Shown piece by piece: positions 15,420 through 22,352 of a stretch of DNA of 64,000 bases (positions are counted from its first letter, which is position 1; the number at the start of each line of letters is the position of its first letter). The stretch lies in the NCBI RefSeq assembly GCF_037477895.1, contig NZ_CP132744.1, positions 2,170,001-2,234,000 on the forward strand. The letters are read 5' to 3'. Under the pieces are notes generated by a model that had not been told where the DNA came from, made no database searches, and saw only the letters and a program-made list of their open reading frames with translations. A program made the position numbers and the translations under genes. The stretch is from Mycetohabitans endofungorum (GTDB lineage: Bacteria; Pseudomonadota; Gammaproteobacteria; Burkholderiales; Burkholderiaceae).

Positions 15420-16364
15420 ATGAACCTGCATCAGTTCCGGTTCGTGCGCGAGGCCGTCCGTCAGAATTTCAACTTAACCGAGGCGGCCAAAGCCCTGTAC
15501 ACCTCGCAGCCTGGCGTATCGAAGGCGATCATCGAGTTGGAGGACGAACTTGGCGTCGAGATCTTCACCCGGCACGGCAAGCGCGTGCGCTCGTTGACCG
15601 AACCTGGCAGGATCATCTTGTCCTCGGTGGAAAAAATCCTGCAAGAAGTCGAAAGCCTAAGAAGGGTCGGAAAAGACTACGCAGCGCAGGACGAAGGCAA
15701 TTTGGTGATCGCCGCGACCCACACGCAAGCGCGGTATTCATTGCCACAGGCGGTGGCCGAGTTCAAAAAACGGTTTCCAAAGGTGCATCTGTCCATTCTG
15801 CAAGGCAACCCGACCCAGGTTGCCGACATGGTCCTGCACGACCAGGCCGACCTGGCCATCGCGACCGAGGCCGTCTCGACGTATAAGGACCTAGTCTCGC
15901 TGCCGGCATTCCAGTGGCATCACTTGGCGGTCACGCCGCCCGAACATGCGTTGCTTGACAGAAAGCAACAGATCACGCTGGACGATCTCGCGCAATTTCC
16001 GTTGATCACCTATGACAACGCGTTCGCGGGGCGCTCGAAGATCGACCAGGCGTTCGCTTTGCACGGACTCACACCGGACATCATCCTCGAGGCGATCGAC
16101 GCGGATGTCATTAAGACCTATGTCGAACTAGGCCTGGGCGTGGGGATCATGGCCGACGTCGCATTCAACGCAGAGCGCGACCGGCAGCTACGCGCGATTC
16201 CCGTTGGTCGCCTGTTCGGCACCAACACCACACGGGTTGCATTAAAACAAGGCACCTACCTGCGCGGCTATGTCTATACATTTATCGAATTGCTCTCGCC
16301 GGCGCTGAACCGCAAGTGGGTCGAACAGGCGATGCGGGGCAACGCCAATGCGTATGAAGGGTGA
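15420..16364 (+). CDS. CysB-like LysR-family transcriptional regulator
   Basis: A 314-residue LysR regulator whose start, MNLHQFRFVREAVRQNFNLT, is typical of the CysB/Cbl subfamily. The DNA-binding helix-turn-helix covers residues 1-60 and the effector domain runs from about 93 to 300. It is divergent from the cys cluster, so sulfate-assimilation control in response to O-acetylserine or a sulfur ligand is the likely role. Cbl-like or sulfonate-type specificity cannot be excluded from sequence alone. The tRNA-Leu gene follows 153 bp downstream. Confidence 0.9.
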   Translation: MNLHQFRFVREAVRQNFNLTEAAKALYTSQPGVSKAIIELEDELGVEIFTRHGKRVRSLTEPGRIILSSVEKILQEVESLRRVGKDYAAQDEGNLVIAATHTQARYSLPQAVAEFKKRFPKVHLSILQGNPTQVADMVLHDQADLAIATEAVSTYKDLVSLPAFQWHHLAVTPPEHALLDRKQQITLDDLAQFPLITYDNAFAGRSKIDQAFALHGLTPDIILEAIDADVIKTYVELGLGVGIMADVAFNAERDRQLRAIPVGRLFGTNTTRVALKQGTYLRGYVYTFIELLSPALNRKWVEQAMRGNANAYEG

Positions 16365-16391: not shown

Positions 16392-16420
16392 TTGCCGAGC
16401 GTGCCGAATTGCGACATAAT
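16392..16420 (+). promoter_or_regulatory. Candidate promoter for the intron-bearing tRNA-Leu
   Basis: TTGCCG (16392-16397) and CATAAT (16415-16420) are separated by 17 bp and lie about 100 bp before the tRNA, after the CysB-like stop. This is the best sigma-70-like pair in the interval. The start point is not determined. Confidence 0.42.
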
Positions 16421-16517: not shown

Positions 16518-16837
16518 GCCCGGGTGGTGAAATTGGTAGACGCAGGGGACTCAGACCAAATTTGAGCCCTTCAGGGGAAACCCTGGAGGTGAAGCCCGTC
16601 AAACTCGGTGAAGGCCCTGGACGCAAGTCCGAGCTAATGCCGAGCCAAGCCTTGGCGCCGAGAGGTGTCTTGGAAGGTGTAGAGAGCAGACGGCGGGCAC
16701 CTAAGGCCAGAAGGCTAAGGTGAAGGCGTGCTCCAGACCACGAACGTCCTCTCTCGAGAGGGCGGCGGCGAAAGCCGAAGTGGGAAGAAAATCCCCCGCC
16801 GCAAGGCGTGCCGGTTCGATTCCGGCCCCGGGCACCA
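16518..16837 (+). tRNA. tRNA-Leu(CAA), interrupted by a group I intron
   Basis: The 5' exon (16518-16552, 35 nt) and 3' exon (16788-16837, 50 nt, encoding its own CCA) join into an 85-nt leucine tRNA. The acceptor stem GCCCGGG pairs with CCCGGGC. The anticodon stem GGGGA/TCCCC encloses the spliced loop CTCAAAA with anticodon CAA, and the T arm reads CCGGTTCGATTCCGG. The intervening 235 nt disrupt the anticodon loop, so the gene gives no functional tRNA without splicing. Both exons look intact and the intron folds as a ribozyme. The loop boundaries are unambiguous if the intron ends in its obligatory G at 16787. A strong terminator follows at 16871. Confidence 0.95.
16553..16787 (+). ncRNA. 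Group I intron (IC3-like), 235 nt, no ORF
   Basis: The intron lies between tRNA positions 34 and 35, the site of cyanobacterial tRNA-Leu(UAA) introns. I can trace the conserved helices. P1 pairs exon CTC (16550-16552) with GAG (16564-16566). P2 is CCTTCAGGG/CCCTGGAGG with a GAAA loop. P3 is CCGTC (16596-16600)/GACGG (16689-16693). P4 is CTCGG (16604)/CCGAG (16640). P5 is GGAC-GCAA-GTCC. P6 is GCCAAG/CTTGGC. P7 is GAGCA (16684)/TGCTC (16729). P8 is CACC/GGTG and P9.1 CGGC-GAAA-GCCG. The P-Q-R-S order matches group IC3 tRNA introns of cyanobacteria and Azoarcus. It is too short for a homing endonuclease. Splicing is inferred, not shown. Confidence 0.92.
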
Positions 16838-16870: not shown

Positions 16871-16906
16871 AAACCCCGTGAGATCAAGGTTTCACGGGGT
16901 TTTTCT
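16871..16906 (+). terminator. Rho-independent terminator after tRNA-Leu
   Basis: ACCCCGTGA (16873-16881) pairs with TCACGGGGT (16892-16900) around an 8-10 nt loop, followed by a T-rich tail at 16900-16904. It closes the tRNA transcript. Confidence 0.88.
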
Positions 16907-22177: not shown

Positions 22178-22207
22178 TTTACAACCGGCGCCTGCGTCGC
22201 GTATTCT
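22178..22207 (+). promoter_or_regulatory. Promoter of candidate small RNA / argD leader
   Basis: TTTACA (22178-22183) and TATTCT (22202-22207) with an 18-bp spacer resemble a sigma-70 promoter, just upstream of the gene-free stretch that ends at a strong terminator. Confidence 0.45.
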
Positions 22208-22212
22208 TCGCG

Positions 22213-22352
22213 GATGATTCGCGCTCAAGCCCATCTCCGACGTCGCTGCTCGCTGTTTCCATAGGGAAGCCGCTGGCTCGTCCCGGACTGTCGCGCTGAA
22301 TTGCCGCGCACCGGATTACCAAGCCACGGACTTCCGTGGCTTTTGTTTTTTT
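22213..22352 (+). ncRNA. Candidate small RNA upstream of argD
   Basis: Between the reductase and argD lie about 300 bp without an ORF. A sigma-70-like promoter (22178) and a terminator (22321-22352) would bound a transcript of about 140 nt. It could be a stable RNA, a 6S RNA among other classes, or a leader attenuator of argD. I could not draw a convincing overall fold, so the class is left open. Confidence 0.35.
22321..22352 (+). terminator. Strong rho-independent terminator before argD
   Basis: AAGCCACGGA and TCCGTGGCTT form a near-perfect stem at 22321-22342, followed by TTGTTTTTTT. It sits 65 bp before the argD start, so argD must be transcribed from a promoter beyond it or by antitermination. 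Confidence 0.9.

Follow-up and report, generated by a model that had tools for sequence, protein, structure and literature searches.

The locus described here raises two questions: whether a leucine tRNA gene that is interrupted by a ribozyme is a working gene, and how a bacterium came to possess it. By the window we mean the whole 64 kb stretch of DNA that was analysed (G000:C1:2170001-2234000), which belongs to a genome of 3.55 Mb in two contigs. With introns disallowed, ARAGORN calls no tRNA anywhere in the window; allowing introns of up to 400 nt gives exactly one, tRNA-Leu(caa) at [16518,16837], with an intron of 235 nt. Window positions 16518-16837 are confirmed to be a complete tRNA-Leu(CAA) gene with a group I intron between C34 and A35. 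The parts of the gene and a candidate promoter are as follows.

16392..16420, + strand: promoter-like TTGCCG-17-CATAAT, a candidate read by eye
16518..16552, + strand: 5' exon of tRNA-Leu(CAA), 35 nt with C34 last; the same stretch is identical in the intron-free genes of nine genomes
16553..16787, + strand: group I intron, 235 nt, with G as its final base (omega G)
16788..16837, + strand: 3' exon of tRNA-Leu(CAA), 50 nt, from A35 through the encoded CCA

The spliced exons (85 nt) give a tRNA fold that includes a long variable arm and, among the loci compared, are 100% identical to the intron-free tRNA-Leu(CAA) of nine other genomes; the claim of the first-pass annotation that the exons rejoin to a perfect tRNA-Leu thus holds letter for letter against natural genes. 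Each exon pattern is found once in the window, against an expectation of 0.02-0.03. The CATAAT hexamer also occurs upstream of the gene in several intron-free relatives. Just 3' of the tRNA, a hairpin followed by a T run (16874-16904) looks terminator-like by eye. Elsewhere in the window, positions 22201-22346 match the Burkholderia sRNA BcKCsr7 with 89 bits, above its gathering score.

The insert had been assigned to group I from its helices, with a covariance search suggested as a check, and here the outcome depends on the model used. Rfam Intron_gpI (RF00028) gives the window intron 30 bits (E 1.1e-5), short of its gathering score of 50, which is an annotation cut-off and not a defining trait of group I introns. 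Introns of tRNA-Leu(UAA) genes behave in the same way: that of L065 is also sub-threshold (34.5 bits), and those of L043 and L298 have no match at E 0.01. Because the introns tested, the window intron among them, fall below the Rfam cut-off, standard annotation misses the window gene and lacks these tRNAs generally, and island finders that start from the tRNAs of standard programs should miss the elements described below. A second covariance model, made from 18 tRNA-Leu(UAA) intron cores with none from CAA genes, scores the window intron at 124.3 bits (E 1.3e-26), its sole match in the 64 kb up to E 10; in the whole genome it finds only this intron and the tRNA-Leu(UAA) intron on the megaplasmid (C2), besides a 13.7-bit match (E 7). 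ARAGORN and the UAA-intron model thus agree with the earlier reading of a 235-nt group I intron in the tRNA-Leu(CAA) of a Burkholderia relative. The window intron is homologous to tRNA-Leu(UAA) introns and, like them, is inserted after base 34, those examined from proteobacteria lying at the matching position, U34|A35.

We aligned 52 introns (48 CAA rows and four UAA rows) on a P1-P9 structure, in which 92.1% of 3066 cells are paired, compared with 31-45% in slid structures. Two-sided changes occur in 27 of 60 pairs, in 231 cells versus 77 in shuffles. This covariation comes from the P2, P5, P6 and P9 hairpins; P3, P4 and P7 are nearly invariant, and pairing is weaker in outer P6 (81%) and P8 (74%). 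The window intron has the conserved group I core (P3-P8, P4-P6 and the P7 pseudoknot). Of the helices proposed earlier, P2, P4, P5, P6, P7 and P8 are present, as are P1 and P9, but P3 is drawn differently: in place of CCGTC/GACGG, homology prefers GCCCGUC/GGCGGGC, and since both hardly vary in the 52 sequences, covariation favours neither. The elements of the fold are placed as follows.

16564..16566, + strand: internal guide GAG, which pairs with exon C32 U33 C34 (P1), with C34-G at the splice site
16594..16600, + strand: P3 5' strand GCCCGUC, partner 16692-16698, by homology
16604..16609, + strand: P4 5' strand, partner 16639-16644
16684..16688, + strand: P7 5' strand GAGCA, partner UGCUC at 16729-16733, the guanosine-site helix by homology, invariant in the 52 rows

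The terminal G is found in the window intron and in all 100 complete CAA introns of the survey described below, for which the gene caller required a G there. The splice-site pair is C-G in 48 of 48 CAA rows and U-G in four of four UAA rows. An intron after base 34 of a CAA gene leaves an exon that must end in C, and with a guide GAG that UAA introns also have, the U.G pair becomes C-G; in the window the guide G is present opposite the last exon base (C34-G) and the wobble form itself is absent. A U.G pair at the 5' splice site belongs to the best conserved traits of group I introns, and C-G exceptions exist, with slower first steps, so the C-G pair may slow the first splicing step here. By homology, the pre-tRNA would be transcribed, the intron would bind GTP and cut after C34 held by the C-G guide pair, and C34 would then be joined to A35 beyond the terminal G of the intron.

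Whether the cell needs this reaction can be judged from its tRNA set. The genome has 48 tRNA places, one of them weak (30 bits, not called by ARAGORN), and the intact leucine anticodons are CAG, GAG and UAG. tRNA-Leu(UAA) occurs only at C2:165099-165451, where it is also split by an intron. Neither an intact tRNA-Leu(UAA) nor an uninterrupted second tRNA-Leu(CAA), for which a check had been proposed, is found among the 48 places; with no intact UUR-reading leucine tRNA, the earlier claim that decoding of UUG needs splicing is probably right and, if anything, understated. The related-genome search gave the same gene in all eight of the genus genomes examined (the genus here being Mycetohabitans including Vallotia). 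Four of these are the genomes of Candidatus Vallotia, of only 1.1-1.2 Mb, and all four keep both split leucine genes. Compared with the window, the Vallotia CAA genes are 91-100% identical in the exons, 81-85% in the intron and 47-58% in the flanks; conservation of exons and intron while the flanks diverge is read as a sign of selection on a working gene. It could still be argued that the split gene is silent or decaying and that UUG is read through wobble by tRNA-Leu(UAA), since E. coli survives without its tRNA-Leu(CAA). We regard this as very improbable: tRNA-Leu(UAA) is itself split here, the gene persists in the small genomes with its intron, and 136 of 5639 codons in 17 selected window ORFs are UUG. 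If the gene does work, reduced symbiont genomes in which two leucine tRNAs are split would need ribozymes to read their UUA and UUG codons.

The first-pass annotation had called the gene not a standard example, which needs tempering in that it is no isolated oddity. An exact pattern for C34-type genes, run on one genome per species for 84,980 species, gave 107 stretches, of which 100 are complete genes according to the caller, so that there are at least 100 genes of this kind (some records share one genome or one species). These hold 95 distinct introns of 220-252 nt. The hosts are Burkholderiales, Xanthomonadales, Steroidobacteraceae and other gamma- and betaproteobacteria; L120, a 4.8 kb MAG contig labelled Mycobacterium, is probably misbinned. 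Seven stretches are not complete under the caller: L105 and L122 are cut off at the stretch end, L168 and L175 look complete but both are missed by the T-arm pattern, L173 seems degenerate, L106 is apparently a chance match and L183 has an unrelated intron. In one Burkholderiales MAG (L135:827-1731) split genes for tRNA-Leu(UAA) and tRNA-Leu(CAA) lie ∼264 nt apart.

In relatives, the split tRNAs often sit at the edges of integrative elements. We took as an element left end either CTCAAAAA, with which the element starts after the host tRNA half, or tandem AGGAGCC-like repeats, within 420 nt upstream. By this loose motif, 36 of the 100 complete CAA genes have a left end and 64 do not, some stretches being shorter than 420 nt. 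Since UAA elements have CTTAAAA, the zero counts in UAA genes cannot fairly serve as a control for the CTCAAAAA motif. No left end was found upstream of the gammaproteobacterial L107 and L123 in the DNA examined. The spliced tRNA was then used to search 20 genomes, most of them chosen for the left-end feature, and six (G063, G064, G065, G066, G067 and G071) have three pieces in order on one contig, spanning 14-77 kb overall: tRNA positions 1-39 as the 5' half, then a complete tRNA split by an intron, then a 3' part that runs from position 30-33 to 85. The two halves overlap at tRNA 33-39, CTCAAAA, which is the entire anticodon loop (7 bp). At 11 of 15 right ends the gene for an integrase of one family begins ∼180 bp inside; none of this family was found within the stretch examined at the right ends L215, L221, L233 and L239. 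All four integrase proteins scanned contain Phage_integrase (PF00589) and Arm-DNA-bind_3 domains; the elements in relatives have a tyrosine integrase beside an att site in a tRNA gene. Searches of viral contigs for the elements, and of plasmids for the left end, gave none. The exact left-end pattern matches once in 399 genomes of the order, and the elements are thus either rare or diverged. A UAA left-end pattern with three mismatches matches in 18 of the 399 genomes versus five for reversed controls, and only the exact matches, G399 and G401, were used.

Two arrangements depart from this order. In L187 and L207 the junction CTCAAAAATAGG upstream of the split tRNA follows DNA like the right end of another element, with no tRNA half, and it looks as if elements are stacked there in tandem. 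In G079 and G080 (L247 and L248) a stretch of ∼4 kb holds an intact tRNA-Leu(CAA), the gene of a different type of integrase (354-355 aa) and, oppositely oriented, a split tRNA-Leu(CAA); as intact and split tRNAs coexist in these genomes, the split tRNA is not always the replacement for a broken one.

The elements above were found from the intron side. We therefore also chose loci by integrase only, with one integrase as the query, itself taken from an intron-bearing element, against the 399 genomes of the order and 299 genomes of the family around G399 (36 matches in the family, three of which were left out of the examined loci). The examined matches form three groups according to their junctions. 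Group 1 (84-100% identical, except L257 at 67%) ends in CTCAAAATCC of tRNA-Leu(CAA) and comprises L256, L257 and L323-L329. Group 2 (66-67%) ends in CTTAAAATCC of tRNA-Leu(UAA) and comprises L258, L265, L330-L335 and L349; L350 has the group 2 motif with no tRNA after the junction. Group 3 (59-64%; 21 loci, L259-L264, L266, L267 and L336-L348) has no tRNA site and adjoins terminator-like hairpins, and no split tRNA-Leu was found in the six group 3 genomes searched for tRNAs. Both ends were found for 16 elements, eight CAA and eight UAA, and in each the host 5' half precedes a complete tRNA with the same anticodon, split by an intron of 226-237 nt; no intron-free replacement was found among the 16. 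These elements are kin through the choice of query, not independent, with close relatives within each type, and five of the eight CAA-element genomes were also in the intron-first scan. For five CAA and six UAA elements (of eight each) the two ends share a contig, 44-83 kb apart; in G634, G617, G536 and G641 they are on separate contigs. In G591 the distance between them is 0.7 Mb on a circular contig and 2.6 Mb on a linear one, indicating either a rearrangement or two elements. For L257 and L334, which have the tRNA-Leu junction, no left end was found in the same genome. The empty site is visible in five genomes without a CAA element (four carry a UAA element and one has group 3 integrases), where cysM lies beside an intact tRNA-Leu(CAA); in all eight CAA-element genomes cysM lies beside the 5' half.

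These genome comparisons show that the crossover made by the integrase (PF00589 + Arm-DNA-bind_3) falls within the 7-bp loop, CTCAAAA in tRNA-Leu(CAA) and CTTAAAA in tRNA-Leu(UAA), and leaves the host tRNA as two dead halves, and that the element supplies a full replacement tRNA in which an intron interrupts the same 7-bp core. A plain spare copy would hold the target loop only a few hundred bases from the element end. Most likely the intron would hide the replacement from the element's own integrase and its kin, and splicing would keep the tRNA working; we infer splicing, tRNA function and the shield alike. The intron might instead be present in the elements by descent only, because a captured tRNA happened to carry one, in which case the hiding of the core would be irrelevant. 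UAA introns do occur in Burkholderiales chromosomes outside such elements, and the kinship of the 16 integrase-chosen elements is what descent would give. Against this, all 16 are split, in two target types, and descent alone does not predict an unrelated intron in the same loop, which is what L183 has; we hold descent only to be possible but the less probable account.

L183 is part of a 22-kb contig of an Alteromonadaceae MAG, and its positions 629-1154 hold a tRNA-Leu(CAA) 5' half, ∼116 nt and then a full split tRNA-Leu(CAA). The intron (280 nt, group I) is in the loop at 32|33 or 33|34 and passes the cut-off of the Rfam group I model with 73.8 bits. It resembles phage DNA in 33 records, mostly from Vibrio (the best covering 49% of the query at 76%), and because of this likeness of part of it the intron is taken to be of another lineage. 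Methylase and IS21-type genes are nearby, and there is no tyrosine integrase among the four ORFs of ≥140 aa. The L183 split tRNA was found in none of 360 genomes of its class, in a search that included no genome known to match, and in no plasmid. In this one case, a single MAG contig, the element-like layout appears to have arisen again with an unrelated intron. With two leucine tRNAs affected and this apparent recurrence, we lean, with some reserve, towards introns that shield the spare tRNAs of elements, the window gene being a domesticated product. One integrase and a pair of short DNA targets would be enough for a direct test of the shield.

It remains to place the window gene itself, for which two further features are needed.

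15420..16364, + strand: cysB-type regulator gene, which marks the native site, as in the intron-free relative L053
16469..16517, + strand: leader resembling the left end of tRNA-Leu(CAA) elements (GTGAAGTAG..ACTGCTTCAC..TTTT), from alignment scores and shuffles

The window does not itself lie within an element: it has no tRNA halves or fragments, and the element integrase has no match in G000 at E 1e-150. As the cysB neighbour also precedes the intron-free gene of L053, the gene is, judged by its neighbourhood, at its native site. For loci chosen after the likeness had been noticed by eye, the 49-base leader before the tRNA scores 17-19 against the leader of L159 and the left ends of L145, L153 and L187; in each comparison 1000 shuffles produced no score as high. 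The scores are 8.5-13.5 for the intron loci L112, L132, L110 and L139 (10 to 435 of 1000 shuffles as high) and 7-12 for six intron-free relatives (15 to 254 of 300 shuffles as high). The leader is likely to be the fossil of an element. A quick tree of 124 introns, with duplicate records and identical introns left out and 57 of its 121 inner branches weak, groups the window intron with those of Mycetohabitans and Vallotia (support 99). The nearest group to this clade is L117, L145, L187 and L207 from Alcaligenaceae (support 82), of which L145, L187 and L207 are element-borne; L145 and L187 thus appear in both tests, as tree neighbours and in the leader scoring.

An alternative is that an ordinary group I intron invaded this gene from the tRNA-Leu(UAA) of this host or a different one, by gene conversion or as a mobile intron, and that elements had no part in it in this lineage. 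In its favour, the introns of the two tRNA types are homologous, the tree shows a single change of the C34/U34 trait, this genome also has a UAA intron, and the 64 scanned genes without a left end would fit. Yet the UAA intron of this genome falls in another clade, distant on the tree, and of the four introns closest to the genus group from outside it, three are carried by elements. The leader is more like element left ends than like the intron-free relatives, and an intron of 235 nt is too small for a homing endonuclease gene; we think invasion unlikely. The reading that we prefer, and consider probable on this comparative evidence, is that the window gene is the domesticated remnant of a loop-targeting element that brought a split spare tRNA, with an intron that splices and guards the core. 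The ancestor of Mycetohabitans and Vallotia would have lost the element, and the split tRNA would have stayed at the native site by cysB.

We compared this gene with the known bacterial tRNA group I introns, namely those of cyanobacterial and plastid tRNA-Leu(UAA), of tRNA-Ile in Azoarcus, Acidovorax and Burkholderia, and of tRNA-fMet. Like them, it has a small, ORF-less intron in the anticodon loop with a P1-P9 fold and a terminal G; unlike them, the host is tRNA-Leu(CAA), the exon ends in C34, the splice-site pair is C-G and not U.G, and the CAA introns are often element-borne and spread over beta- and gammaproteobacteria. In the parts of the sources available, bacterial group I introns including those of tRNAs are reviewed (PMC4033280, PMC3984707), tRNAscan-SE 2.0 lists group I introns in tRNA-fMet and in tRNA-Ile2 of Acidovorax and Burkholderia (PMC8450103), and putative ones are given for Beggiatoaceae tRNA-Leu(TAA) and tRNA-Arg(TCT) (PMC4853749). 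A known split tRNA-Leu(UAA) of a gammaproteobacterium was also missed by annotation, but it is UAA and not CAA, and the available text reports no link to an element. Among the matches listed from the open-licence literature, which mostly leaves subscription journals outside, the text available holds no report of a group I intron in bacterial tRNA-Leu(CAA) and none of element-borne split tRNAs.

The elements share with Islander-type tRNA-targeting islands, as far as the available part of PMC4383910 describes them, the tyrosine integrase, the crossover in the anticodon loop and the tRNA fragments that mark the ends. Such islands restore the target tRNA from an attP fragment (PMC4383910, same part), which the elements in relatives do not do: the two host halves persist, and the element holds a complete, separate intron-split tRNA of its own, making this a variant island plan. 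It would be a second plan for tRNA-targeting islands, in which the gene is broken and a protected spare is supplied. It would also give bacterial group I introns, mostly viewed as harmless parasites, a plausible benefit to their carrier, and it suggests a route by which introns could spread among tRNA genes without homing endonucleases.

Split tRNA-Leu(UAA) genes were also seen on plasmids. The E. coli tRNA-Leu(UAA) gene is intron-free. Two resistance plasmids (L001:3995-4291, LR890662.1; L004:3995-4289) have a complete, unannotated tRNA-Leu(UAA) with a group I intron of 211-212 nt, which differs from E. coli's own gene, and an aac(3)-IId-type gene lies ∼0.7-1.1 kb away. Among 72,556 plasmid records, 1280 contain DNA like this segment (mostly 95-99%), as do 635 of the 5426 complete E. 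coli genomes, and the split tRNA may mark the source of that resistance-plasmid segment.
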